Positions 43,409-59,800 of a DNA stretch of 64,000 nt are shown piece by piece. The position numbers were made by a program, and so were the translations under genes. The notes under the pieces were generated by a model. That model was given only the letters and a program-made list of their open reading frames with translations, searched no databases and was not told where the DNA came from. Origin of the DNA: SAR86 cluster bacterium (GTDB lineage Bacteria > Pseudomonadota > Gammaproteobacteria > Magnimaribacterales > D2472); assembly GCA_023703615.1 (NCBI GenBank), contig CP097971.1, positions 852,315 to 916,314 of the forward strand. Reading direction: 5' to 3'. Within the stretch, counting starts at the first letter, position 1. Every line of letters starts with the position of its first letter.

Positions 43409-44602
43409 ATGGATAATCTAGAAAAATTTAGACAGGAAACAAAAGAATGGTTAGATACTAACTGCCCCAAATCAATGAGAACTGGTGCAGATCCAAAAAC
43501 TCCAATTGATGAGGTGTGGGGTGGCAGAAAAGCTGTGTACAAAAACCCAGAATCCAAAATTTGGTTAGACAGAATGGGCGCTAAAGGTTGGACTATGCCT
43601 ACAGTCCCAAAAGAATACGGAGGCGGAGGATTGTCCGCTGATGAGGTAAAAATTTTAAATCAAGAAATGTTCATGATTGGAGCAAAATCACCCCTACTGA
43701 GTTTTGGTATTTGGATGCTTGCTCCAGTACTTCTAGAGTATGGAACTGAAGAACAAAAAAAAGAACACCTTCCAAAAATAATCAAAGGTGAAATTAGATG
43801 GTGTCAAGGTTATAGCGAACCTGGCTCTGGCTCGGATTTAGCTAGTTTGTCAACAAAAGCTGATGATGTTGGTAATAATTTTTGTGTAAATGGTCAAAAA
43901 GTTTGGACATCATATGCAGATAAAGCTGATTGGATTTTCGCACTGGTTAGAACAGGCCCTAAGGAACCAAAACATGACGGAATAAGCTTCTTGCTAATTG
44001 ATATGGAAAGTAAAGGTGTATCGACAAAACCAATAACTCTTATCAGTGGGAAATCACCCTTTTGCGAGACTTTTTTTGATGATGTTGAGGTACCTAAAAA
44101 AAATTTAGTTGGAGAGCTAAATGCTGGATGGACTATTGCAAAAGCATTACTTCAACATGAAAGAGCTTTCATATCAAACTTTGGTCTTGCATCTGCTATG
44201 GGTAGTGGGAAGGACCTAGTTTCAATTGCTAAAAAACATGTTGGTGAAGAAAATGGAAAAATAAAAAATAATTTTTATAGATCTCAAATTGCATCTCACA
44301 AAATTAAAGAACATGCATTTGGCCTAACGCTTAAAAGAGCTGGTGATGAGGGCGGTAAAGCAAGCGCTACTGCATCAATGTTTAAACTTTATGGAACAGA
44401 ACATAACAAAAAAAGACACGAGCTTATGGTTTCTGCGATGGGAACTGATGGAGTTGCTTGGGATGGTGATGAGTTTGATAAAGAAGACAAAAACTTAACT
44501 CGAGCTTGGTTAAGAACAAAAGGTAACTCTTTGGAAGGCGGAACTTCTGAGGTGCAATTAAATGTTATTTCTAAAAGAGTATTAGGATTGCCAACTAATT
44601 AG
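43409..44602 (+). CDS. Acyl-CoA dehydrogenase, catalytic-type (alpha-like) subunit
   Basis: FAD enzyme introducing a C2=C3 double bond in an acyl-CoA. FAD- and substrate-binding signatures are complete: WCQGYSEPGSGSDLA and VNGQKVWTSYADKADWIF around residues 130-175, and the C-terminal LEGGTSEVQLNVISKRVLGLP. Length of 397 residues is normal. The next gene, 9 bp on, encodes a second dehydrogenase lacking the C-terminal motif, suggesting a heteromeric alpha/beta enzyme as in mycobacterial steroid side-chain FadE pairs. Substrate unknown; homology to such pairs suggests bulky or branched acyl-CoAs. Confidence 0.88.
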   Translation: MDNLEKFRQETKEWLDTNCPKSMRTGADPKTPIDEVWGGRKAVYKNPESKIWLDRMGAKGWTMPTVPKEYGGGGLSADEVKILNQEMFMIGAKSPLLSFGIWMLAPVLLEYGTEEQKKEHLPKIIKGEIRWCQGYSEPGSGSDLASLSTKADDVGNNFCVNGQKVWTSYADKADWIFALVRTGPKEPKHDGISFLLIDMESKGVSTKPITLISGKSPFCETFFDDVEVPKKNLVGELNAGWTIAKALLQHERAFISNFGLASAMGSGKDLVSIAKKHVGEENGKIKNNFYRSQIASHKIKEHAFGLTLKRAGDEGGKASATASMFKLYGTEHNKKRHELMVSAMGTDGVAWDGDEFDKEDKNLTRAWLRTKGNSLEGGTSEVQLNVISKRVLGLPTN

Positions 44603-44611
44603 TAAAAAAGT

Positions 44612-45751
44612 ATGAAACTAATTCTCACTGAAGAGCAACAGTTTTTAAAAGATACTGCTTCAGATTTTGCATCAGAAAAAACACCAATTTCGCATTTTAG
44701 AAATTTGAGAGATTCAAATGATCCACAACTATGGGATAGCGAAGTGTGGAAAGAAATGGTCGCTCTAGGTTGGGCAGGAATTTTGATACCAGAGGAATTT
44801 GGAGGATCTGATTTTGGTGTTACTGGAATAAGCGTTATCTTACAAGAATGTGCAAAAACTTTGACGCCGTCTCCACTTTTTGCAACAGGTGTACTAGGTG
44901 CTTATGCCATTACAAATTTTGGCAATCAAGAACAAAAAGAAAAATACTTACCTAGAATAATTTCTGGAGAGATCACAACAGCCTTGGCTATAGACGAGTC
45001 CAGTCATCATGATCCTCGTAATATTTCAATGACTGCAACATTGAAAAAAAATTCATATGTTCTAAACGGTAAAAAATCTTTTGTTGTAGATGGATCAAGC
45101 GCTGATACATTGATTATTGTTGCCAGAACTTCTGGAAACAAAGGAGATGATACTGGTTTAACAATTTTCATAACAGATGCAGACAATGAGGGAATTAAAA
45201 AAGTCAAAACTGATATGGCAGATTCAAGAAATTATGCAAACATTTATTTTGATAACGTTTTGATACCTGCAGAGAATATACTCGGTAGTTTAGAAACTGG
45301 TGGTGAATCTATTGAAAGAATTCTTGATATTGGAAGAATAGCAATATCTGCAGAAATGTTAGGGAATGCAGAAGCTGCATTTGAAACAACAATTGATTAT
45401 CTAAAACAAAGGAAGCAATTTGGTGTATTAATAGGTACATTTCAAGCCCTTCAACATAGAGCAGCTCAAATGTTTTGCGAACTTGAATTAACTAAATCAT
45501 CGGTCATGGCTGCCAGTCATGGAGCAGATGAAAATTCAAATGAATTGCAACGCCTATCTAGTCTCGCAAAAACTGTTGCAGGAGAAACCTTACATTTAGT
45601 TTCAAACGAGGCCATCCAAATGCATGGTGGGATTGGAGTTACAGATGAATATGATATTGGTTTCTATTTAAAAAGAAGTAGAGTTATTGAAAATATATTT
45701 GGTAATTCTATATTTCATACAGAAAGATATGCTAATTTAACTGGCTTTTGA
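44612..45751 (+). CDS. Acyl-CoA dehydrogenase, degenerate (beta-like) subunit
   Basis: Acyl-CoA dehydrogenase fold of 379 residues: FLKDTASDFASEK at the start, VALGWAGILIPEEFGGS, a C-terminal helical domain with QRKQFGVLIGTFQALQHRAAQM and QMHGGIGVTDEYDIGFYLKRS. The FAD-site motif QGYSEP..GSDLA is replaced by ALAIDESSHHDPRN and the terminal E-G-T-S-E motif is absent (IENIFGNSIFH instead). It is therefore likely to be the partner subunit of the gene 9 bp upstream rather than an independent enzyme. Confidence 0.85.
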   Translation: MKLILTEEQQFLKDTASDFASEKTPISHFRNLRDSNDPQLWDSEVWKEMVALGWAGILIPEEFGGSDFGVTGISVILQECAKTLTPSPLFATGVLGAYAITNFGNQEQKEKYLPRIISGEITTALAIDESSHHDPRNISMTATLKKNSYVLNGKKSFVVDGSSADTLIIVARTSGNKGDDTGLTIFITDADNEGIKKVKTDMADSRNYANIYFDNVLIPAENILGSLETGGESIERILDIGRIAISAEMLGNAEAAFETTIDYLKQRKQFGVLIGTFQALQHRAAQMFCELELTKSSVMAASHGADENSNELQRLSSLAKTVAGETLHLVSNEAIQMHGGIGVTDEYDIGFYLKRSRVIENIFGNSIFHTERYANLTGF

Positions 45752-47197: not shown

Positions 47198-48352
47198 ATG
47201 GAATCACAAATTTGTAAAATACTTGATATAGAATTCCCATTAGTAGCGTTTAGTCACTGTAGAGATGTTGTAGCAGCTGTTTCAAAAGCCGGTGGTATTG
47301 GTGTTCTTGGTGCAGTTGGGCTTTCACCAGAAAAATTAGAAATTGAGTTAAATTGGATTGATCAACACATTGACGGCAAGCCTTATGGAGTTGATGTTCT
47401 AGTCCCAAATTCATATGTTGGAAAAGGGGAAAATCTTACAAGTAATGATTTGAGATCTATGATACCTCAAGAACATCGCGAATTTCGTGCTGATGTATTA
47501 GAGCAATATGATATTGATGCTAATGATTTGAGAAGCATTAAAGATTCAGAAAAAATAGAACAAAACTCTAATGAAGTTCTTGGAGCTGGACTAGATGGCG
47601 CAAAAGAAGTCTTAGAAGTTGCTTTCTCACATCGCATAAGTCTTGTAGCAAATGCGTTGGGGGTTCCACCAAAATGGATGTTAGAAATGGGCAAACAGAA
47701 TAATGTACCAGTCGCAGCTCTTGTTGGAGCTAAACAACATGCTATTAAACAAGCTGAGGCCGGAGTTGATATTATTGTCGTTTCAGGAACAGAGGGCGGT
47801 GGGCATTGTGGGAGTGTTTCTACAATGGTTCTTGTACCAGAAGTAAGAAGAGCGCTTAAACCCTATGGAAATGTTCCAATACTTGCTGCTGGAGGAATCT
47901 GTACTGGAGAACAAATGGCAGGCATCATGGCTATGGGTGCTGATGGAGTATGGTGTGCATCTGTTTTTCTTCCAACCACAGAAGCTGAGACGTCTGATAA
48001 CATAAAGGAAAAATTAGTTGCTGCATCATCAAGTCATACAGTGAGATCAAAAAGTCGAACAGGTAAACATTCAAGGCAACTTTCTTCACCATGGGTTGAA
48101 GCATGGGAGGATAAAAATGCTCCAGAGCCCTTGCCAATGCCACTTCAAACAATGGTTAGTGAGCCTGCTTTAAAAAAGATATCTGATCAGGCAGCCATTG
48201 GTCATGATGGCGCAAAACAACTTGAAACTTATTGGGTTGGTCAAGGTATTGGACTCGTGAATGAGTCAATCTCTGCTGGACAGACTGTTCAAAAGTTTAA
48301 AGAAGAATTCTTAAATTCTTATGAGAGAATTAATGAATTTCTATCAGAGTAA
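47198..48352 (+). CDS. Nitronate monooxygenase-like FMN protein
   Basis: FMN barrel of the 2-nitropropane dioxygenase/nitronate monooxygenase family. VVAAVSKAGGIGVLGAVG at the N-terminus, ALVGAKQHAIKQAEAGVDIIVVSGTEGGGHCG and VPILAAGGICTGEQMAGIMAMGADGVW form the FMN- and phosphate-binding core. At 384 residues it is longer than typical enzymes (320-360), with an insert at about residues 70-135 rich in acidic residues. Physiological role in this genome is unclear: propionate-3-nitronate detoxification is the default expectation, but related proteins act as CoA-ester reductases in steroid catabolism. Confidence 0.78.
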   Translation: MESQICKILDIEFPLVAFSHCRDVVAAVSKAGGIGVLGAVGLSPEKLEIELNWIDQHIDGKPYGVDVLVPNSYVGKGENLTSNDLRSMIPQEHREFRADVLEQYDIDANDLRSIKDSEKIEQNSNEVLGAGLDGAKEVLEVAFSHRISLVANALGVPPKWMLEMGKQNNVPVAALVGAKQHAIKQAEAGVDIIVVSGTEGGGHCGSVSTMVLVPEVRRALKPYGNVPILAAGGICTGEQMAGIMAMGADGVWCASVFLPTTEAETSDNIKEKLVAASSSHTVRSKSRTGKHSRQLSSPWVEAWEDKNAPEPLPMPLQTMVSEPALKKISDQAAIGHDGAKQLETYWVGQGIGLVNESISAGQTVQKFKEEFLNSYERINEFLSE

Positions 48353-48358
48353 AAAAGT

Positions 48359-48739
48359 CTATCCAAACTTGCAAAAAGTAAGCTTATTACCATCAAGATC
48401 TCTAACATAACCTCCATAAAAACCTGTAGCTCTTTGACCAGGAGCACCAGCATCTGTTGCACCTAATGATATAGCTTTTTCATATAAAGTATTCACATCT
48501 TTTTCTGTTTTCATTGTAAAACCTGTCATGCTTCCGTTACCCACAGATGCTTCCTCACCATCATATGGAACAAAGACTGCAAACATAGTGTCATCTCCAG
48601 GAATAGTCCAAAAATAACTTCTTTCGTTTGGCTTGAAACTTTTAACTTCCATTTCACTAAATAATTCGTCATAAAAAATTTTTGCTCTTTCAAGGTCATT
48701 AGTTCCAATGGTTATGTAACTAGCTATTTTTCCTTTCAT
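48359..48739 (-). CDS. VOC (glyoxalase/bleomycin-resistance) family protein
   Basis: Vicinal-oxygen-chelate fold: IASYITIGTNDLERAKIFYDELF at the start, FAVFVPYDGEEASVGNGSMTGFTM in the middle and GFYGGYVRDLDGNKLTF at the end. At 126 residues it is a single-domain member. Metal ligands are not fully clear. It starts inside the msrAB stop (ATGA), so it belongs to the GST-msrAB-VOC run, which looks like a small detoxification or oxidative-stress unit. Confidence 0.85.
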   Translation of the reverse strand: MKGKIASYITIGTNDLERAKIFYDELFSEMEVKSFKPNERSYFWTIPGDDTMFAVFVPYDGEEASVGNGSMTGFTMKTEKDVNTLYEKAISLGATDAGAPGQRATGFYGGYVRDLDGNKLTFCKFG

Positions 48740-50019
48740 GCACTCTCCTTTATTTTTACATTAGTAATCTCATCTCTCGTCTTAAATTCAAGAACCGTGG
48801 CATTTATACAATATCTTGGCATTCCATTTGGACCATCATCAAAAACATGTCCTAGATGTATATTCGAGGAAACTGATCTTATTTCAGTCCTTTTCATACC
48901 ATAACTATTATCAGGTAATTCATATACAGACCCCTCAACAGGTTTTGTGAAAGATAACCATCCTGACCTTGAGACAAATCTATTTTTTGTATCAAATAGA
49001 GGTTCTCCGCTTAGTTTGTCTATAAATAAACCATCCGGTGTATTTTTAAAAATTTGATATTCTTTGCAAAAGCGCTCATCAGTTCCTTTGTTAAATGCCA
49101 CGTTATATGCTTCAGAATCTCCTAATTTAAATTTACCTAATAGTTGATAAAAATCTTTTTGATTTATATAGCCTTGATGTGAAAAAACTTCTTTTCCATT
49201 TTCTAGAAAAATTAATGATGGTGTAGCCCAAGTTGGAGATGAAATTTCAAGGCCATGCAATTGATCTGAGGTTCTGTAACTAAGTGGGATGCTTCCTTTA
49301 TAACCACTAGTCACATCATGCTTAAATTTCTCACAATAAGGACAATAATTTTGTGAGTCTAAAACTAAAATTTGCTTTGCAGTAAGGAGATATTCATTAT
49401 CTAAGAAGTTTTTTTCTTTATTATTAAATACAATTCCTGTGGATAGATCAGGACAATAACCATTGGGATTCTTTTTTAAATAGTCCTGATGATATTCTTC
49501 GGCAAGATAGAAATTATCTAAAGGTTCCAGCTTAGTTCTAATTTTTCCATAATCTCCCTCAATCAAAAGTTCTTGGTATTCTGCCATAACTTTCTCTGCG
49601 AGTTCTTTTTGATATTCATTTTGAAAAAGAATTGTTGATCTGTATTGTGTGCCTATATCATTGCCTTGCCTATTCAGTTGAGTCGGGTCATGAGTTTCAA
49701 AAAAGTGTTTTAAAATATTTTCAAGGGAAACAGCATTACTGTTAAAAGTGATTTTTACAACTTCAACAAAATTATTATCGTTATACTTATTTTTAAACTG
49801 AGTTATTGATCTGTAATTTGGTGAAATGCCATACCCATTTGCATAGCCAGATTCTGCATTAATGACTCCATCCATTAATTCATAACCCTTTTCAGCTCCC
49901 CAAAAGCAACCAGAGCCAAGATATATTGTTTTGACATGTGAGGTTTTGCTTGCATCTAGATATGGAATGGCAAATAAGACTAGTAATAAGTAATTTAAAA
50001 TTTTAGTTTTTAAGTTCAT
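48736..50019 (-). CDS. msrAB: Exported MsrA-thioredoxin-MsrB fusion (methionine sulfoxide reductase)
   Basis: Reduces both S- and R-methionine sulfoxide. An N-terminal signal peptide (about residues 1-23) is followed by MsrA (28-200; catalytic Cys38 in GSGCFWGAE, candidate resolving Cys189 in NGYCPD), a thioredoxin-like middle domain (about 205-300; Cys226-PY-Cys229 and the cis-proline stretch ATPSLIFLENG), and MsrB (about 310-415; Cys404 in PRYCINATV). MsrB lacks the usual zinc cysteine pairs (DKLSGEPLF) and the resolving cysteine of SGCGWPS (here SRSGWLS). Neisseria PilB has the same three activities, but with thioredoxin first; here it lies between. Probably periplasmic. Confidence 0.92.
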   Translation of the reverse strand: MNLKTKILNYLLLVLFAIPYLDASKTSHVKTIYLGSGCFWGAEKGYELMDGVINAESGYANGYGISPNYRSITQFKNKYNDNNFVEVVKITFNSNAVSLENILKHFFETHDPTQLNRQGNDIGTQYRSTILFQNEYQKELAEKVMAEYQELLIEGDYGKIRTKLEPLDNFYLAEEYHQDYLKKNPNGYCPDLSTGIVFNNKEKNFLDNEYLLTAKQILVLDSQNYCPYCEKFKHDVTSGYKGSIPLSYRTSDQLHGLEISSPTWATPSLIFLENGKEVFSHQGYINQKDFYQLLGKFKLGDSEAYNVAFNKGTDERFCKEYQIFKNTPDGLFIDKLSGEPLFDTKNRFVSRSGWLSFTKPVEGSVYELPDNSYGMKRTEIRSVSSNIHLGHVFDDGPNGMPRYCINATVLEFKTRDEITNVKIKESA

Positions 50020-50714: not shown

Positions 50715-52373
50715 ATGAAAAAAGAAAATATTTCTCCAGAAATTAAGACAAATCTAGACACTAAATCAGAACAATATCTCAAAAATAAAGAAGTGATGCT
50801 TGAAAAGCTAAAATTTTTAGATGGTCTTCTTGATTTAGCCGAAATCGGGGGAGGTATTCATCATCATGAACGTTTAGCAAAACGAGGAAAAATGCCAGTT
50901 AGACAAAGAGTCTTGAATGTTCTTGATCAAGACAGTCCTTTTTTAGAAATTCAACCCTTTGCGGCCTATGGAACCAACAATTACAATGTAGGCGGTGGAT
51001 GTGTTTCTGGTGTTGGCATTATTTCTGGAATAGAGTGTGTAATTTTTGCTAATGATCCAACTGTTAAAGCAGGGGCTATGACTGTTTATGTTGGTGAAAA
51101 ATGGAAAAGGGCTAAAGAAATTGCAAGAGAAAATAGAATACCATTTATAAGTTTTGTTGAATCAGCTGGTGGTGATTTAAGCATACCAAACAATAGTGGT
51201 GATTCGCCGCCAATTGCACCAACCCTTCAACAAGGACACTTTGCATCCACAGGTAGATTTTTCTATGAAATGACTGAATTATCAAAATTAAGAATTCCTG
51301 TGATTTCGGTTGTTTTTGGTTCCTCTACAGCTGGTGGAGCATATCAACCAGGAATGTCTGATTACAATATATTTATTAAGGACCAATCAAAAGCTTTTCT
51401 TGCAGGTCCACCTTTAGTGAAAATGGCAACTGGAGAAGAATCAGACGATGAAACACTTGGTGGAGCTCAAATGCACTCTGAGGTTTCTGGACTTTCTGAT
51501 TATTTAGCTGAAGATGAAATGGATGCTTTAAGAATATGTAGAGAGGTTGTATCTCATTTGAACTGGTCAAAAAAAGGTCCTGAACCAAAAATTTTATCTG
51601 AAGAACCAAAATATGATAAAGAAGAGTTATTGGGTATTCTTAGCGAAGATCTAAAATCTGCAGTTGATATAAAAGAAATTATTGCCAGATTTGCTGATGG
51701 TTCAAAATTTGAAGAATTCAAACCTTTATATGGCTCATCTTTGGTGTGTGGTTGGGCTTCAGTTCATGGATATCAGATTGGAATTATTGGTAATAATGGG
51801 CCGATATACCCTGAATCTGCTGAAAAAGGTGCAAGTTTTATTCAATTGTGCAATAAAAGAGATATTCCACTTATATTTCTTCACAATGTAACTGGTTTTC
51901 TGGTAGGTAAAGATTTTGAAAGGCAAGGTATTATTAAAAAAGGCTCTCAGCTTATAAATGCTGTTTCAAATTCAATGGTGCCGCATATAACATTTATTGT
52001 GGGAGCATCTTATGGAGCTGGGACTTATGCAATGTCCGGAAAGGCATTTAATAATAGATTCACATTCCTATGGCCAACAGCCAAAATTGCAGTCATGGGA
52101 CCAGAACAAATGGCAGGAGTAATGTCTATTGTTAGAAAAGCAAAAGCCAAAAGAGACGGTAAAAAGTTTGATGAAAAAGCCGATGAACAACTTAAAGCAA
52201 TGGTAATTGACTACCTTGAAAAATTATCTCATGGACTAGTTGCAAGCAGTATGCTTACTGATGATGGGATCATTGATCCAAGAGATACAAGAGATGTAAT
52301 TGGATTTTGCCTTTCAATTGTTAGTAATAACGTTATTGAAGGAGCAAGAGAATATGGAGTATTTAGATTATGA
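50715..52373 (+). CDS. Acyl-CoA carboxylase, carboxyltransferase (beta) subunit, AtuC/LiuB-like
   Basis: Transfers carboxyl from carboxybiotin to an acyl-CoA. The crotonase-fold halves are clear: KMPVRQRVLNVLDQDSPFLEI, VVFGSSTAGGAYQPGMSDY and AGPPLVKMATGEE in the first half, and GFLVGKDFERQGIIKKG, GASYGAGTYAMSGKAF and MGPEQMAGVM in the second. The TGEE..D..LGGAQMH pattern resembles methylcrotonyl- and geranyl-CoA carboxylase beta chains rather than propionyl-CoA carboxylase. At 552 residues it is slightly longer than Pseudomonas LiuB/AtuC (about 535). It is the first gene of the cluster, and its stop overlaps the alpha subunit as ATGA. Choice of substrate needs an alignment of the acyl pocket. 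Confidence 0.85.
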   Translation: MKKENISPEIKTNLDTKSEQYLKNKEVMLEKLKFLDGLLDLAEIGGGIHHHERLAKRGKMPVRQRVLNVLDQDSPFLEIQPFAAYGTNNYNVGGGCVSGVGIISGIECVIFANDPTVKAGAMTVYVGEKWKRAKEIARENRIPFISFVESAGGDLSIPNNSGDSPPIAPTLQQGHFASTGRFFYEMTELSKLRIPVISVVFGSSTAGGAYQPGMSDYNIFIKDQSKAFLAGPPLVKMATGEESDDETLGGAQMHSEVSGLSDYLAEDEMDALRICREVVSHLNWSKKGPEPKILSEEPKYDKEELLGILSEDLKSAVDIKEIIARFADGSKFEEFKPLYGSSLVCGWASVHGYQIGIIGNNGPIYPESAEKGASFIQLCNKRDIPLIFLHNVTGFLVGKDFERQGIIKKGSQLINAVSNSMVPHITFIVGASYGAGTYAMSGKAFNNRFTFLWPTAKIAVMGPEQMAGVMSIVRKAKAKRDGKKFDEKADEQLKAMVIDYLEKLSHGLVASSMLTDDGIIDPRDTRDVIGFCLSIVSNNVIEGAREYGVFRL

Positions 52374-54292
52374 TATTTAATTCAATACTTATTGCCAATA
52401 GAGGCGAAATTTCATGCAGAATTATTAAAACTGCAAAAGAAATGGGAATAAGATCTATTGCTGTATATGTTGATGCTGACAGGGATTCGCTATTTGTTAA
52501 ACAAGCCGATGAATCAATTAGATTGGAAGATGGAGGATATCTTGATGGAGATCAAATAATTGAAGCTGCTAAAACATCTGGTGCTCAAGCAATTCATCCT
52601 GGGTATGGATTTTTATCAGAAAATGCTTCTTTCGCAAAAAAAGTAAGAAAAGAAAAATTAATTTGGGTTGGTCCCTCCCCGCATGTTATCTCAGTGATGG
52701 GAGATAAATTAAAAGCAAAGGAATTAGCAATTAAAGCTGATGTTCCTACCCTACCAATGACATCAAAGCCTAGCGAAGCAAAAAAAATTGGGTACCCTCT
52801 TCTTATTAAAGCAGCTGCTGGTGGTGGTGGAAAAGGAATGAGGATTGTGAATCAAGAAAGGGATTTAAAGGAATCTATTGTAAGTGCACAAAGAGAAGCT
52901 AAAAGTGGATTCAATGACGAAAGAATCTTTATTGAAAGATATGTAAAAAAATCTAGACATATTGAAATTCAAATTTTAGGTGACTTTAAAGGTAATGTTG
53001 TTCACTTAGGTGAACGAGAATGCTCAATTCAAAGAAGGCATCAAAAAATAATCGAAGAGTCCCCATCTCCAAGAATTTCTGATGAAGTAAGAAATAAAAT
53101 GGGTGAAGCAGCCGTCAAACTTGCAAAAAAAATTAAATATGAATCTGCTGGTACAGTAGAGTTTCTATTTGATGATAAAACCGAAGAGTTTTGGTTTTTA
53201 GAGGTTAATACAAGGCTTCAAGTTGAACATCCAGTAACAGAGGAAGTTACAGGAGTAGATTTGGTATGCGAACAACTTAAAATTGCTAGAGGTGAATCTA
53301 TTGAATTTGATCAAAAAGATATAACTTGGACTGGATCATCTATCGAGGCAAGACTATATGCTGAGGATCCAAATAATGACTTTCTTCCAGAAATAGGGAC
53401 TTTAATCGCTTTCGAAGAAAATAATTCTGCAGAGGCAAGATGGGATACAGGTGTTCAGAAAGGCACTATAGTAGGAACGGATTTTGATCCCATGCTCGCA
53501 AAAATAATTTCGTATGCTCCAAACAGAACTGATGCTGCAGTTAAACTAGCAAAAGCTCTTGAGTCAGCTCATATTGGAGGTGTAAAAACTAATAGAGATT
53601 TTTTAATAAATTGTCTTAAAACTAAGGAATTTTTAGACGGAGATACTACCTCAGATTTTATTGAAAGAGTAAAGCCCAGCAGGAAGCTTGAAATCAATCA
53701 ATCAGAAATAGAGCATGTTTCAGCTATTGCAGCAATGTGGATGCAACAACAAAACAGAAACAATTCGAATACAGCAAAATTTATGCCTTCAGGCTGGACA
53801 AACGGAAGATTACCAAATCAAAAGATAACTTTTGAATTTGAAGCTACTGAATATGATATTGAATATAAACAACAACGAGACAGAAAATTTCTTTTTTCAA
53901 ATAATAAGGAAGCATATATTTATTCATGCGATGAAGATGGAATAGATCTTCTCTTTGATGGCAAGAGACACTATTCCAGAGTTACGGTATCAAAAAATAA
54001 AATATTAGTTCATATGCCGTTTGGTGATGTGATGCTGCAATTGAAGCCGAGATTTAAGATACCAGGTACAGAAGTTACTGCTGGCGGGCTTGTAGCCCCT
54101 ATGCCTGGAAAAGTCATTGATGTAAAAGTGAAAAAAGGTAAAAAAGTAAAGGCTGGCGATACCTTGGTTATTCTTGAAGCAATGAAAATGGAACACTCGA
54201 TTAAAGCTGTCGAAGATGGCACTGTTTCAGAGCTATTAATATCTTTAAATGATCAAGTTGAAAATGGTGCTTTATTGATGGTAGTCAAATAA
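52370..54292 (+). CDS. Acyl-CoA carboxylase, biotin carboxylase plus biotin carrier (alpha) subunit, AtuF/LiuD-like
   Basis: ATP-dependent carboxylation of its own biotin. Biotin carboxylase domain over about residues 1-445: LIANRGEISCRIIKTAKEMG, IHPGYGFLSENA, ATP loop AAAGGGGKGMRIV, HLGERECSIQRRHQKIIEE and LEVNTRLQVEHPVTE. A middle linker of beta type is followed by a C-terminal biotinyl domain (about 570-640) with biotin on Lys606 in EAMKMEHS. Length of 640 residues is within the range for MCC/GCC alpha chains (about 650-665). Obligate partner of the beta subunit directly upstream. Confidence 0.93.
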   Translation: MIFNSILIANRGEISCRIIKTAKEMGIRSIAVYVDADRDSLFVKQADESIRLEDGGYLDGDQIIEAAKTSGAQAIHPGYGFLSENASFAKKVRKEKLIWVGPSPHVISVMGDKLKAKELAIKADVPTLPMTSKPSEAKKIGYPLLIKAAAGGGGKGMRIVNQERDLKESIVSAQREAKSGFNDERIFIERYVKKSRHIEIQILGDFKGNVVHLGERECSIQRRHQKIIEESPSPRISDEVRNKMGEAAVKLAKKIKYESAGTVEFLFDDKTEEFWFLEVNTRLQVEHPVTEEVTGVDLVCEQLKIARGESIEFDQKDITWTGSSIEARLYAEDPNNDFLPEIGTLIAFEENNSAEARWDTGVQKGTIVGTDFDPMLAKIISYAPNRTDAAVKLAKALESAHIGGVKTNRDFLINCLKTKEFLDGDTTSDFIERVKPSRKLEINQSEIEHVSAIAAMWMQQQNRNNSNTAKFMPSGWTNGRLPNQKITFEFEATEYDIEYKQQRDRKFLFSNNKEAYIYSCDEDGIDLLFDGKRHYSRVTVSKNKILVHMPFGDVMLQLKPRFKIPGTEVTAGGLVAPMPGKVIDVKVKKGKKVKAGDTLVILEAMKMEHSIKAVEDGTVSELLISLNDQVENGALLMVVK

Positions 54293-54299
54293 TTAGTTA

Positions 54300-54914
54300 A
54301 TGCATAATTTAGAATATAAAAATAACTCTCTGGGCAATAAAAATTCAAGAATCTATACAAAAAGACACTATGAAATTATAGATGCTTTAGAAAGATTACT
54401 GGAACAAGGTGTTCCAGACCTTACAATGTCTGAAATAGCTACGAAACTTAAAATTTCTCTACGAACGCTATACGAAATTGCTCCAAGCAGAGATAAATTG
54501 ATTTTAATGACAATGGACAATATTCTAAAAAAATTAGGTAAATTTGCAATGGATTCTGTTAATGAAATTGATTCGCCAATAAATAAATTAGAGCAATACC
54601 TTTTTATAGTTAATCAAGCTGTTGGCCCAAAGTTTGATAGATTTTTAATAGATATGGAAAAAATTAATGGGTCAAAAACAACAGCTGATTATCATGAAAA
54701 CTTTATAAAAAATTATATTAAAAGGCTCTTAGAAGAAGCTATTGAAAGAAAAGAAATTAAATTAATTGATGTCAAAGCTTTCGCAATACTTCTAGGAGGA
54801 ATAGGTAGAGAATTTTTTAAAGAGGAAAATAAAAATTCAATTAATTTAACACCTGAAGAATCTGCAAATTCAATTACAAGCATAATTTTGAATGGAATTA
54901 AATTAGAAAACTAA
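54300..54914 (+). CDS. TetR family transcriptional regulator
   Basis: The N-terminal helix-turn-helix covers about residues 24-70 (IIDALERLLEQGVPDLTMSEIATKLKISLRTLYEIAPSRDKLIL), followed by a helical ligand domain. It lies inside the catabolic cluster, 7 bp after the carboxylase alpha gene, and its stop shares one base with the AtuA-like start. Unlike Pseudomonas atuR or liuR, which precede their operons, it is embedded and would be co-transcribed. The inverted repeat at 50661-50688 is a candidate binding site. Confidence 0.87.
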   Translation: MHNLEYKNNSLGNKNSRIYTKRHYEIIDALERLLEQGVPDLTMSEIATKLKISLRTLYEIAPSRDKLILMTMDNILKKLGKFAMDSVNEIDSPINKLEQYLFIVNQAVGPKFDRFLIDMEKINGSKTTADYHENFIKNYIKRLLEEAIERKEIKLIDVKAFAILLGGIGREFFKEENKNSINLTPEESANSITSIILNGIKLEN

Positions 54915-56689
54915 TGAATAAAGACTATATAAAAATTGCTAATTGCAGTGGATTTTATGGGGATAAATTATCTGCCGCAAAAGATTTAGTAGATGGAGGC
55001 CCTATTGATGTTCTGACTGGTGACTATCTTGCTGAATTAACCATGGCAATTCTCTTTGGTCAAAAAATGCAAAGAGGAGAAGATAAAGGCTATGTAGGAA
55101 CCTTTTTGAAACAAATCAATCAAATTGCAAAGTCATGCATGGAAAAGAATATCAAGATTGTAAGTAATGCTGGTGGATTAAATCCAAAGTCTATGGCCAA
55201 TGAGATTGAGAAAATTTTAAAGCAACAGTCAATAAATATGAAAGTAGCCTATATAGATGGTGATGATTTAATGCCAATAATTCCTGAATTAAGTGAATTG
55301 GGAGAAGAGTTTAAGAATATTGATAAAGATATCAAATTAAACGAATCGGATTATTCACCATTGACAGCAAATGCTTATCTCGGTGCTTGGGGTATAAAAG
55401 AGGCTCTAGATAAAGGTGCTGATATTGTCGTCTGTCCAAGAGTGACAGATGCAGCCGTGGTAATTGGGCCAGCTGCATGGAAGTTTAATTGGGAAAGAGA
55501 TAACTATGATTCTTTAGCAGGAGCACTTGCAGCAGGTCATATTATTGAATGTGGGTGTCAGGCAACTGGTGGCAATTATGCTTTTTTTAAAGAAGTTAAA
55601 AGTTTTGATAATATTGGTTATCCGATTGCTGAAATATATGAAGACGGCAGTTTTTTCATTACAAAACATCCTAATACTGGAGGTTTGGTTTCCTGTGGAA
55701 CGGTAACTGCTCAACTATTATATGAAATAAATTCGCCAGCCTACGTTAATCCAGATGTAATAGCTCATTTTGATACATTAAAAATTGAAGAGGTAGAAGA
55801 GGATAGAGTCTATGTGTCTGGTTGCAGAGGTAGTTCACCACCAAATAAACATAAAGTATGTATAAATCTTGCAGGAGGTTTTAGAAATGGAATGGAAATT
55901 ATTCTGACTGGTTTAGATATAGAAGCCAAAGCAAAAGTTTTTACAGATGCGTTATTTAATTCAGTTGGTGGTAAAAAACAATTCGATGAAGTTTCCATTC
56001 AGCTTCATCGTACAGATAAAGAAAATCCAATCACTAACGAAGAAGCAATGGCATCACTTTTAGTTTCAGTTAAATCAAAAGATCAAAACTTAGTTGGCAG
56101 ACTATTTAGCGCAAAAATAATTGAATTAGCTTTAGCAAATATCCCAGGTTTTTTTGCACAAGGCGGCGTTAAACCTAGTGGACCAGTGATTGTTTACTGG
56201 CCCTCTTTGGTGAATAGTAAACATATTAAAGAAAAAGTTCATATTGATGGCAAAGAAATAGAAGTTATACCAACGAGTCAATTAGAATTGGATGAAATTT
56301 ATTATCAGAAAGAGCCCATTAAAGTTAAAAAGATTAAAAAAGAAGATGAAAAACAAATCTACTTTGGTGAAATTTATGGAACAAGATCTGGTGACAAAGG
56401 AGGATGCGCAAATCTTGGCGTTTGGGCCAAAAATTCAGACTCATTTGCTTTTCTTCATAATTTTTTAACAGTGAAAAAGCTTAAAGAATTATTGCCAGAT
56501 TTAAATCAATTTAAAGTTGAACGATTTGAATTAGCCAATATAAACTCTCTTAATTTTTATATTCATGACATATTACAAGATGGAATTTCATCAAATGACA
56601 AAAAAGATGGACAAGCTAAATCTTTAGGTGAATATTTAAGAGCAAAAAAAATCAAAGTTCCACAAAGTATTATTGGAGAAATCAGATGA
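54914..56689 (+). CDS. AtuA-type acyclic terpene utilisation protein (DUF1446 plus C-terminal ferredoxin-fold domain)
   Basis: Homologous by motif to AtuA of citronellol/geraniol catabolism, whose reaction is unknown. The large DUF1446 domain runs over about residues 5-450: IANCSGFYGDKLSAAKDLVDGGPIDVLTGDYLAELTM, NAGGLNPKSMA, CPRVTDAAVVIGPAAWKF and HIIECGCQATGGNY. The small C-terminal domain (about 480-590) has YGTRSGDKGGCANLGVWAK. The 591-residue fusion of the two domains is the usual form. This protein is the best marker that the cluster handles isoprenoid-like acyl-CoAs. It overlaps the enoyl-CoA hydratase start as ATGA. Confidence 0.88.
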   Translation: MNKDYIKIANCSGFYGDKLSAAKDLVDGGPIDVLTGDYLAELTMAILFGQKMQRGEDKGYVGTFLKQINQIAKSCMEKNIKIVSNAGGLNPKSMANEIEKILKQQSINMKVAYIDGDDLMPIIPELSELGEEFKNIDKDIKLNESDYSPLTANAYLGAWGIKEALDKGADIVVCPRVTDAAVVIGPAAWKFNWERDNYDSLAGALAAGHIIECGCQATGGNYAFFKEVKSFDNIGYPIAEIYEDGSFFITKHPNTGGLVSCGTVTAQLLYEINSPAYVNPDVIAHFDTLKIEEVEEDRVYVSGCRGSSPPNKHKVCINLAGGFRNGMEIILTGLDIEAKAKVFTDALFNSVGGKKQFDEVSIQLHRTDKENPITNEEAMASLLVSVKSKDQNLVGRLFSAKIIELALANIPGFFAQGGVKPSGPVIVYWPSLVNSKHIKEKVHIDGKEIEVIPTSQLELDEIYYQKEPIKVKKIKKEDEKQIYFGEIYGTRSGDKGGCANLGVWAKNSDSFAFLHNFLTVKKLKELLPDLNQFKVERFELANINSLNFYIHDILQDGISSNDKKDGQAKSLGEYLRAKKIKVPQSIIGEIR

Positions 56690-57471
56690 AAAAATTATCT
56701 TTAGATGGTCTCATATTTAAAGCAACTGAATTAGATATAAAAAATAATATCATGAGCATCATGCTCAATAGGCCTGAAAAAAAGAATGCTCTAAATAATG
56801 TAATGATGAATGAAATTAATTATGCTTTAGCATATGCAAAACAAGAAAAATCTATAAGAGTAGTAATTATAGCTGCAAAGGGTGATATTTTTTGTGCTGG
56901 TGCAGATCTATCAAGAAGCAAATCTGAATCAAATGTACCAAAATTAGAAGATGCTGATGATATAAGCTTATCCTTAAGGCATTTATACAAACCTGTTATT
57001 TGTAAAATTCAAGGTTCGGTCTTAGCTGGTGCTCTCTTGATTGTATCTAATTCGACTCATGCAATTGCGGTCAATGAAGCAACCTTCTCAGCACCTGAGA
57101 TTCATAGAGGATTATGGCCTTTTATGGTGATGGCTGGTTTATTTCGAGTTATGCCTAAAAGAGCTGGCCTTGATTTTATAATGCGAGGCAAGCCAATTGA
57201 TTCAAAAAAAGCAGAGGACTGGGGTTTGATAAATGAATCTGTAAAAAAAGAAGAACTTAACGAAAAAGTTGATAAACTAGCTAATGAGCTTGCAAGTTTA
57301 GCGCCAGAAACAATGAAATTTGGCCTAGAGGCATATGAGAAACAAGACGCAAAAAGTTTCGATGATGCCCTTCCATACTTAAAGGAACAAATAGAAAAAT
57401 GCTTCAAAGGCGAAGATGCTAAAGAAGGTATAAGTGCCTTTCTAGAAAAAAGAAAACCAAATTGGGATTAA
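56686..57471 (+). CDS. Enoyl-CoA hydratase/isomerase family protein, AtuE/LiuC-like position
   Basis: Crotonase-fold enzyme expected to hydrate the carboxylated glutaconyl-type CoA. MLNRPEKKNALNNVMMNEI, GDIFCAGADLSRS (oxyanion hole) and ICKIQGSVLAGALLIVSNSTHAIAVNEATFSAPEIHRGLWPF are visible. The position of rat hydratase Glu144 is occupied by leucine (LAGALLI), while the Glu164 equivalent is kept (APEI). Loss of the first glutamate occurs in several crotonase subfamilies, so chemistry other than simple hydration is possible. Length of 261 residues is normal. Confidence 0.88.
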   Translation: MKKLSLDGLIFKATELDIKNNIMSIMLNRPEKKNALNNVMMNEINYALAYAKQEKSIRVVIIAAKGDIFCAGADLSRSKSESNVPKLEDADDISLSLRHLYKPVICKIQGSVLAGALLIVSNSTHAIAVNEATFSAPEIHRGLWPFMVMAGLFRVMPKRAGLDFIMRGKPIDSKKAEDWGLINESVKKEELNEKVDKLANELASLAPETMKFGLEAYEKQDAKSFDDALPYLKEQIEKCFKGEDAKEGISAFLEKRKPNWD

Positions 57472-57483
57472 AAAGGAATTGTT

Positions 57484-58710
57484 GTGGATTTAAATTTTGG
57501 AACAAAATATAAAGATTTTAAAAAAGAAATAAAAGAGTTTTGTAAAAAATATAAAGGAGTGCATTTTACAGACTCATCTAAGGTGCCTCTATCTGATTCA
57601 TTTAAATCAGGTGAAATTAAAATGACAAGATCAGATTGGCAAAAAAAACTTATTGAAAAAGGTTATTTTGCAAGATCGATACCAGTGGCATATGGGGGCT
57701 ATGGTGGAGAGAGTGATATTGTTAAAAGCAGAATAATTGCAGAAGAGTTTGCAAAGGCAAAAATACCGCCACCAATGGGTGGTCAAGGAATTGATATGCT
57801 TGTTCCAACTCTTTTAGAACTTGGAACTGAAGAACAAAAACAAAAATATATAAAACCTACATTACATGGAGAAATCATATGGTGTCAGGGTTACTCAGAA
57901 CCTAATGCTGGGAGTGATTTAGCAAATTTGCAAACAAAAGGCGAGTTAATTGATGGTAATTGGGTAATAAATGGGCAAAAAATTTGGACTAGTACCGCTC
58001 AGTTTTCACAAATGATGTTTTGCCTGGTGAGAACAGAGATCAGTGCTACAAAACATGCCGGAATAAGTTATTTGTTAATCCCAATGGATACTCCAGGAAT
58101 TGAGATCAGGCCATTGGTTGATATGACTTTAAATGCTGGATTTAACGAAGTATTCTTTACGGATGTCACAATTCCTGAAAAAAATATTGTTGGTAAACGA
58201 GGTGAAGGTTGGGCGGTTGCAAATGCAACATTAAGCCATGAAAGGGGATCACTTTCAGATCCAAATGCAATGATGAACAGATTAAATTCACTTATTGAAA
58301 GAATGAAACAAGAATCTGTTAACGGTGAAAAAGTTATTAATAATCCAGTTTACAGAGATAAACTTATGAAAATTCAAGGAAAAGTAATTGCTTTTCAATC
58401 AAACTCGCTTAGAGTTTTATCTGCTAAGGTAAATAAAAATCAAGATGTAAAGATTGCTGGCATGATTCAGAAGCTTGTTGGGACAGAGTTAAGGCATGAA
58501 CTTGAAGGTTTTGCCATAGATGTTATGGGTGAGCTAGGAACACTGTATGAAAATAGTCCTAATATTAGAGATGGTGGATCATGGCAAGTTGCATACATGT
58601 ATTTTCTTGGATTAATAATTGGTGGAGGAACAAGCCAAATTCAAAAAAACATTATCTCAGAGAGAGGCCTTGGCATGCCAAGAGAGCCAAAGGTTCAACA
58701 AGGAGCGTAA
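57484..58710 (+). CDS. Acyl-CoA dehydrogenase, alpha-like subunit, AtuD/FadE-like
   Basis: FAD acyl-CoA dehydrogenase of 408 residues. WCQGYSEPNAGSDLANLQT and INGQKIWTSTAQFSQMMFC form the FAD/acyl region; the C-terminal stretch IIGGGTSQIQKNIISERGLGMPRE matches sterol-type dehydrogenase alpha chains, with glycine before GGTS. The start is GTG 57484 with AAGGAA five bases upstream. It is very similar in layout to the alpha subunit at 43409. The next gene, one base on, encodes a degenerate partner. Confidence 0.9.
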   Translation: MDLNFGTKYKDFKKEIKEFCKKYKGVHFTDSSKVPLSDSFKSGEIKMTRSDWQKKLIEKGYFARSIPVAYGGYGGESDIVKSRIIAEEFAKAKIPPPMGGQGIDMLVPTLLELGTEEQKQKYIKPTLHGEIIWCQGYSEPNAGSDLANLQTKGELIDGNWVINGQKIWTSTAQFSQMMFCLVRTEISATKHAGISYLLIPMDTPGIEIRPLVDMTLNAGFNEVFFTDVTIPEKNIVGKRGEGWAVANATLSHERGSLSDPNAMMNRLNSLIERMKQESVNGEKVINNPVYRDKLMKIQGKVIAFQSNSLRVLSAKVNKNQDVKIAGMIQKLVGTELRHELEGFAIDVMGELGTLYENSPNIRDGGSWQVAYMYFLGLIIGGGTSQIQKNIISERGLGMPREPKVQQGA

Positions 58711-58711
58711 T

Positions 58712-59800
58712 ATGTATTTTGGATTATCTGAAGATCAGATATTTTTTCAAGACAATGTAAAAAAATTTCTTGAAGATAATGGGCCTTTGGATATCGTCAG
58801 AAAGATTGCGAATAATGATGATATGACAACCAAAGAGGATCTCCATAAAGGAATTATAACTTTGGGTATCAATAACATTTTAATTCCTGAAGAAAATGGC
58901 GGGCTTGGATTAGATCTACTTTTTGCAACTGCAATTTCACAAAGTCTTGGAGAAAGTATTGCTACCCTTCCCTTTACGGGCTCGTATGTAATGGCTCCAA
59001 TAGCAATGAAATATGGTGCTAATAAAAAACAAAGAAATTTCTATTTAAATGAGATGTCAAAAAATAATATTAATTTTAGTGTAGGTTTTTCAGAATTTTT
59101 TGGATCGAGAAATGAATCAAATCTTGAGTTTTCAAACAATAAAATAAGCGGTAAAACATTTTTTGTGATAGATTCTGATTATGCAACACATCTAATGGTA
59201 TCTGATAAAAATGGTCAATTAGGTATAGTCTCTATGGAGTCTAGTGAAATTGAAATTATTAATTTAATTACGGTTGATAAAACTAGAGTCTTTCAAGAAA
59301 TACTTTTTAATAATGCTGAAATAGATATTTTAGAAAGTACTTCAAATTCTATTGAGGCAGTAAATAATGCTATTGATGCAGGAAGAATAACAATAGCTGC
59401 TGACTCATTGGGTGCATCAAAAGCCATGCTAAATAAAGCAATAGAGTACTCGAAAGAAAGAAAGCAATTTAATAGAGCTATTGGATCATTTCAGGCTGTC
59501 AAACATATGTGTGCAGAGATGGCTTCAGAACTAGAACCATGTTATTCACTTTTATGGCATGCTGCTCATTCCTTTGACAATAATGAGAAAAACAAAAAAA
59601 TTATGGCCTGTCATGCAAAATCACATATCTCAGATGTTTCTAAGATGATTTCAAAAAAAGCGACAGAAGTTCATGGCGGTATGGGCTTTACAGATTTATT
59701 AGGTTTACATTTTTGGTTTAAGAGAATTGGTGTAAATAGACAGTTATTAGGTGCACCAGAAATTATTCGAGAAGAAGCTGCGTTATTTCAAGGCTTTTAA
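58712..59800 (+). CDS. Acyl-CoA dehydrogenase, degenerate beta-like subunit
   Basis: The start at ATG 58712 (MYFGLSEDQIFFQDN) is chosen because AGGAG lies six bases upstream and an upstream reading would lie inside the previous gene; 362 residues. Dehydrogenase fold with LIPEENGGLGLDLLFA, ERKQFNRAIGSFQAVKHMCAEM and EVHGGMGFTDLLGLHFWFKR. The FAD-site QGYSEP..GSDLA is replaced by VGFSEFFGSRNE and the terminal GTSE motif is missing, as in the beta-like subunit at 44612. Probably forms a heteromer with the gene before it. Confidence 0.86.
   Translation: MYFGLSEDQIFFQDNVKKFLEDNGPLDIVRKIANNDDMTTKEDLHKGIITLGINNILIPEENGGLGLDLLFATAISQSLGESIATLPFTGSYVMAPIAMKYGANKKQRNFYLNEMSKNNINFSVGFSEFFGSRNESNLEFSNNKISGKTFFVIDSDYATHLMVSDKNGQLGIVSMESSEIEIINLITVDKTRVFQEILFNNAEIDILESTSNSIEAVNNAIDAGRITIAADSLGASKAMLNKAIEYSKERKQFNRAIGSFQAVKHMCAEMASELEPCYSLLWHAAHSFDNNEKNKKIMACHAKSHISDVSKMISKKATEVHGGMGFTDLLGLHFWFKRIGVNRQLLGAPEIIREEAALFQGF

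Follow-up and report, generated by a model that had tools for sequence, protein, structure and literature searches.

A probable heteromeric acyl-CoA dehydrogenase encoded beside carboxylase and AtuA genes in a SAR86 genome

Described relatives of the gene pair

Heteromeric acyl-CoA dehydrogenases (ACADs) have been described for steroid degradation, in the excerpts of PMC8399759, PMC6678751 and PMC11153573 used here. According to the first of these excerpts, they carry one FAD at each alpha-beta interface; in the ChsE4 type, according to the last, the alpha subunit binds the isoalloxazine ring and holds the catalytic Glu, while the beta subunit contacts the ADP-ribose part. The original prediction for the locus described here linked such alpha/beta enzymes to mycobacterial steroid side chains, where they are indeed known, but this was too narrow, as the proteobacterial Scd1AB, Scd2AB and ScdC1C2 have also been published (excerpts of PMC8399759 and PMC6678751). 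The latter resemble our gene pair (pair A) as heteromeric ACADs of proteobacteria, a likeness of description rather than of sequence, and differ from it in belonging to bile acid and testosterone pathways.

Two solved alpha2beta2 enzymes are closer points of reference. ChsE4-ChsE5 (FadE26-FadE27) of Mycobacterium tuberculosis (PDB 4X28) shares with pair A the position of the catalytic Glu, the GGGT motif, the loss of the adenine-side block from the alpha subunit and the same division of labour, with residues 1-401 of our alpha aligning to 4x28_A. Unlike pair A, it acts on the cholesterol side chain, its identity is low (18% between our beta model and 4x28_C), and a carboxylase and AtuA adjoin pair A. 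Tcur3481-Tcur3483 of Thermomonospora curvata (PDB 6WY8) provides the second-best solved match to our alpha (6wy8_B) and the first, if tied, to our beta model (6wy8_A), although its substrate is a steroid and the beta identity is 22%. The large and small subunits of pimeloyl-CoA dehydrogenase, PimC and PimD, are a looser comparison: pimC_large is the best NCBIfam model for our alpha, whereas pimD is not the best for our beta, and pair A falls far below both curated equivalog cut-offs (210.2 against 623.85 bits for TIGR03204, and 82.3 against 652.7 bits for TIGR03203).

The second frame of reference is the acyclic terpene utilisation (Atu) pathway of Pseudomonas (AtuA, AtuC/F, AtuE and AtuD), in which carboxylation is followed by hydration and then by the AtuA-dependent release of acetate (excerpt of PMC4847356). 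Here, as there, an AtuA family gene, a carboxylase gene pair and a hydratase gene are clustered with an ACAD. However, AtuD, the citronellyl-CoA dehydrogenase, is encoded by one gene rather than as a two-gene heteromer, a comparison of gene number; AtuB, AtuG and AtuH do not adjoin pair A, as judged from its neighbours; and the gene order differs. The enzyme design is thus already known, and best studied in steroid degraders, whereas the genomic context is unusual. A literature search covering titles and the starts of abstracts, with subscription journals mostly outside its scope, returned no paper on an ACAD of this two-subunit type from SAR86 or from an AtuA cluster.

SAR86, to which the nearest named relatives belong, is an abundant ocean lineage, and the host genome is a streamlined one: a single contig of 1,229,821 bases (1.23 Mb), 95.2% complete. 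The window, meaning the whole stretch of 64,000 nucleotides that was analysed, spans bases 852315-916314 of this contig, and its relevant features are collected in Table 1. Between the flavoprotein gene and the carboxyltransferase gene, at 48736-50019, there is also an apparent MsrA-thioredoxin-like-MsrB fusion of 427 aa, recognised by visual inspection of its translated sequence.

Table 1. Positions of pair A, its neighbours and the other ACAD pairs of the host genome (window coordinates unless a locus is named)
Feature	Position	Strand	Remarks
Alpha of pair B	43409-44602	+	same half-site division as pair A
Beta of pair B	44612-45751	+	same half-site division as pair A
Nitronate-monooxygenase-family flavoprotein	47198-48352	+	PF03060
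Acyl-CoA carboxylase carboxyltransferase subunit (AtuC-like)	50715-52373	+	PF01039
Biotin carboxylase / biotin carrier subunit (AtuF-like)	52370-54292	+	domain search
TetR-like regulator	54300-54914	+	PF00440, 21.6 bits, under the 24-bit cut-off
AtuA family protein	54914-56689	+	PF07287, 526.5 bits (cut-off 22.8)
Enoyl-CoA hydratase family protein (AtuE-like pathway place)	56686-57471	+	domain search
Alpha of pair A	57484-58710	+	408 aa; GTG start, TAA 58708-58710; putative flavin- and substrate-side ACAD subunit
Shine-Dalgarno-like AAGGAG for beta	58700-58705	+	within alpha 3' end, six bases before beta ATG; read from the sequence
Beta of pair A	58712-59800	+	362 aa; ATG start; full ACAD fold without the catalytic Glu, adenine-side FAD block kept
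Pair C	L036 4065-6408		beta first
Pair D	L033 7830-10105	-	overlapping ends

Division of the FAD site between the two genes

Pair A consists of two full-length ACAD paralogues encoded by two adjacent genes. In Pfam searches the alpha matches all three ACAD domains (N-terminal, middle and C-terminal) and the beta the first and last of them, with no match to the middle domain PF02770, and the predicted model of the beta (pLDDT 78.9, pTM 0.83) has the complete ACAD fold. To call the gene "split", as was originally done, is therefore a misnomer. The one-base distance originally noted is confirmed by the open reading frame listing and the sequence, a single T separating the alpha stop from the beta start, and this gap, together with the AAGGAG site, suggests that the two genes may be translationally coupled.

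The two proteins keep opposite halves of the cofactor site. The genome's ten ACADs were aligned with five solved chains (4x28_A, 6wy8_B, 6wy8_A, 1ukw and 4o5m). In this alignment the alpha retains WCQGYSEP (133-140), WTS (168-170), GGTSQIQ (381-387) and the catalytic Glu253 within LSHER, which aligns with the HER Glu of 4x28_A itself. As the original prediction stated, WCQGYSEP and GGTSQIQ are lost in the beta, which has VGFSEFF and LLGAPEI in the same columns; Phe replaces the flavin-side Trp, Gly replaces the catalytic Glu, and GGT..Q is absent. The complementary half had been missed: the beta keeps all three of the motifs ERKQF, GSFQ and EVHGGMGF, none of which is found in the alpha. These columns, which by analogy with MCAD structures we take to be the adenine half of the FAD site, comprise R250, F253, Q261 and H321-G325 of the beta (motifs ERKQF...GSFQ and EVHGGMGF).

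This partition is invariant across relatives. Among 80 named loci, 75 have a complete alpha and beta and 78 a complete beta; the alpha is incomplete in L037, L093, L101, L106 and L114, and the beta also in L106 and L114. In an alignment that kept the columns of the 15 base sequences throughout, all 75 alphas share the S, E, P, W, S, E, R, G, G, T and Q columns and lack the adenine-side R, F, Q, H and second Gly. Conversely, R, F, Q, H, G, G and G are invariant in all 78 betas, every one of which has Phe at the Trp column and Gly or Ala at the catalytic Glu column; at the alternative C-terminal catalytic columns, no Glu was tabulated in any of the 78. Where both genes are complete, their spacing is -1 to 15 bases in 74/75 loci (273 in L102), and a further count found them adjacent in 30/30. 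Because the spacing is so tight and the residue partition invariant, the pairing is not a matter of chance. The one odd case is a Pseudomonadales chromosome with a pair-A beta orthologue (L101 10001-11083), where no alpha match was found across the 21 kb locus.

The controls divide as they should. The same partition of residues is found in the host's other three pairs, and its two singleton ACADs each retain the two halves, although single_2 has Lys at the Arg column and Gly at the Gln column. In the homotetramers 1ukw and 4o5m the adenine half is retained together with the SEP, Trp and Ser-Thr positions, while 4x28_A, 6wy8_B and 6wy8_A are divided as expected, 6wy8_B having Phe at the Trp column. 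In total, Pfam searches found 10 ACAD genes in the genome, eight in four adjacent alpha/beta pairs and two alone; hence the heteromeric type accounts for four of its six ACAD enzymes. Pair B lies about 12 kb upstream of pair A, and its best NCBIfam models are pimC for the alpha and pimD for the beta, both well under the cut-off.

Comparison with solved structures points the same way for the alpha: its best PDB matches, 4x28_A (2e-50) and then 6wy8_B (2.7e-42), both come from alpha2beta2 enzymes, in which they are the alpha subunits. The beta is less discriminating: its best PDB sequence match is the homotetramer 4l1f, with 6wy8_A fifth, and its predicted model has 6wy8_A as the top chain in VIA-align (Z 37.0, rmsd 2.8, 342 residues aligned), with homomeric ACADs tied within Z 1 and 4x28_C at Z 36.1. 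The predicted model of the alpha is poor (pLDDT 52.0, pTM 0.43), its input alignment being shallow with very similar rows.

Since the reciprocal half-site partition is that of the solved alpha2beta2 enzymes, pair A very probably encodes a heteromeric ACAD in which one composite FAD is bound per heterodimer. The assembly would most likely be alpha2beta2, with one active site for each FAD: the alpha would hold the isoalloxazine ring, the acyl-CoA and the catalytic Glu (E253, at the HER position), and the beta, having no catalytic base, would form the pocket into which the ADP half of that FAD fits. The heteromer with one FAD per heterodimer, as originally predicted, is thus strongly supported by the conserved residues and by the alpha's best solved relatives.

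Association with the AtuA genes and the likely substrate

Our favoured reading is that in this genome the ACAD probably desaturates, at the alpha,beta position, an isoprenoid-like acyl-CoA with a methyl branch on its beta carbon. The products of the genes immediately upstream would take over from there: the carboxylase would act on the methyl branch, the hydratase would add water, and AtuA would release acetate. We infer this role in the AtuA pathway of the genome with slightly more confidence than doubt. Taken as a whole, and weighted to the heteromer, the statement that pair A encodes the alpha and beta of one heteromeric ACAD for a beta-branched acyl-CoA, with a role in the AtuA route, is likely to be correct.

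The strongest competitor, a substantial minority possibility, is that the heteromer is real but unrelated to the AtuA genes, being a mere neighbour of them that acts on branched or long acyl-CoAs. The distribution of the genes bears on this in both directions. In a survey of 101 genomes (that of the host and those of 100 relatives from its order), AtuA was found in 81 and a close pair-A beta (E <= 1e-100) in 72. In family f1 each was found in 50/61 genomes, and one seldom occurs without the other, which argues against a chance neighbourhood. The counts for AtuA and the beta were 12/14 and 11/14 in f2, 13/13 and 11/13 in f3, and 6/13 and 0/13 in f4, two of whose six AtuA genomes are 95% and 97% complete. 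In the f2 and f3 regions examined the AtuA quartet is separate from the pair, and in f4 the quartet occurs without the pair, as expected of mere neighbours: no ACAD was found beside the carboxylase-AtuA-hydratase genes in the f2, f3 and f4 AtuA regions examined (L117-L126), nor AtuA near the pair in two f2 regions and one f3 region (L128-L130), where an amidohydrolase-like gene lies nearby. Against this, the same seven-gene order (carboxyltransferase, biotin carboxylase, TetR, AtuA, hydratase, alpha, beta) is common to f1 SAR86 and five loci of another gammaproteobacterial group, and in an alphaproteobacterium (L115) the pair stands beside AtuA in a different gene order, with a GCC-type carboxylase.

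The named loci give a similar picture. When they were divided by title and identity into 60 SAR86-like and 20 others, AtuA was present in 34/60 and 6/20 respectively. A tree of 79 pairs, rooted with the host's three other pairs as the outgroup, has 41 of its 76 pair-A rows linked to AtuA and 35 unlinked, among the latter L057, whose 5.6 kb contig does not extend far enough to decide. On this tree four parsimony changes are required for the linked label. The linkage probably has at least two origins, L115 being a separate instance. The coupling to the carboxylase and AtuA that was originally emphasised is therefore real in this SAR86 family, and recurrent, but not obligate, as the two parts are dissociable elsewhere.

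Several other features of these neighbourhoods were observed. Among the SAR86 loci with an unlinked pair (L062-L091, L103, L114 and L130) the amidohydrolase-like gene (PF04909 in L130) recurs; it occurs in 23/60 SAR86-like loci, those without AtuA. The PF03060 flavoprotein is a recurrent neighbour of the AtuA genes, seen in f1, in the four f4 regions inspected (L117-L120) and in L115 (6786-7922), and may belong to the same pathway as them. In two relatives, G035 and G047, AtuA matches in two pieces with an in-frame stop, and there are stops in the G035 carboxyltransferase, reflecting either gene decay or assembly error. A phmmer search found no solved structure related to AtuA.

It is unlikely that the carboxylase instead serves a leucine/isovalerate (MCC-like) route, with the ACAD as an isovaleryl-CoA dehydrogenase. 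The carboxyltransferase does score slightly higher against MCC than against GCC among PDB entries (474 against 450 bits), an overall score that is uninformative between the two, and the host genome has no other carboxyltransferase at E <= 1e-30, but AtuA lies in the cluster, and the motifs disagree with such a route: the GCC motif AGGAYQPG[ML]SDY is present in 45/46 carboxyltransferases and the MCC motif AGGAYVPA in 0/46. Pocket size is set by Gly162 in GCC and Phe191 in MCC (excerpt of PMC4673880). In the Phe191 register, the residue before GR is Thr in 32/46, including that of the window, Ser in 13/46 and Gly in L115 only. Thr at this size gate argues against a pure MCC, yet GCC has Gly there. 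The window's carboxyltransferase also carries HN.TGF.VG...ERQG, another GCC-like motif, which is present in only 11/46 overall, and the insertion upstream of the size-gate residue is longer in the window's protein than in either MCC or GCC. In a tree with four reference chains, rooted on the MCC side, the L115 carboxyltransferase groups with GCC.

The alpha subunit offers a second view of substrate size. In ChsE4, Pro89 and Pro91 are tied to a large cavity (excerpt of PMC11153573), and the corresponding loop is partly kept here. The argument for a large cavity is weakened because Pro97 is kept in only 28/75 alphas, as against 66/75 for Pro95. A beta-methyl-branched, bulky, isoprenoid-like acyl-CoA is our best guess at the substrate, judged from these residues and the neighbouring genes. 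The bulky cyclic or long isoprenoid compound originally proposed is one that we continue to infer, with the absence of Phe at the MCC size gate and the partly kept Pro loop in its favour; a steroid-ring route has no support in this genome. A literature search pairing SAR86 with terpenes, judged by its listing, returned nothing useful.

Steroids, branched lipids and the biology of SAR86

Steroids have to be considered in their own right, as the nearest solved alphas are steroid ACADs, and the excerpt of PMC4810484 reports a testosterone/cholate pathway in three SAR86 draft genomes. Genes resembling Ltp2 (thiolase-fold) and ChsH2 accompany pair-A orthologues in 4/20 of the non-SAR86 loci, L110, L112, L094 and L095, which come from Phenylobacterium, another alphaproteobacterium and two Pseudomonadales, and P450s are present in L094, L095 and L112. 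However, these genes were found in 0/60 SAR86-like loci, and no locus has them together with AtuA. KshA_C (PF19298), the single marker family searched, has no match in the host genome and is found in 20/101 genomes, all in genera g7, g9, g10 and g11, a far narrower distribution than that of the pair-A beta. It is quite improbable, then, that pair A is a steroid side-chain or ring ACAD like those of Mycobacterium, Pseudomonas Chol1 and Comamonas. Steroid-ring degradation by the aerobic 9,10-seco route in the host genome was itself rejected, KshA, the one marker family, being missing.

That the alpha is an active stand-alone ACAD and the beta a decaying duplicate is hardly credible: the beta is the less conserved (mean column identity of 74% against 84%) and has lost the catalytic Glu and flavin motif, but in 78 complete orthologues, at identities as low as ~44%, it remains intact with its adenine-side block invariant, while the alpha, having lost that block in 75/75, would on its own be missing half an FAD site, and the two are still adjacent in 74/75.

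A broader reading of the pair-A clade can be offered tentatively. Its members may be heteromeric ACADs specialised for beta-carbon-branched acyl-CoAs of any skeleton, feeding either carboxylation and AtuA or a retro-aldol route of the Ltp2/ChsH2 type. On this speculative scheme, the former route would be that of f1 SAR86, the other gammaproteobacterial group and L115, and the latter that of the four loci with Ltp2- and ChsH2-like genes.

If this broader reading is true, the known range of alpha2beta2 ACADs would grow from steroids to include isoprenoids, in a lineage that is abundant in the ocean. The host genome combines four pairs among six ACAD enzymes, one of them beside AtuA, with no match to KshA, which suggests that enzymes of the two-subunit design also act on bulky or branched lipids of other kinds. 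The same combination gives a clue to the diet of SAR86 cells that can be put to the test.
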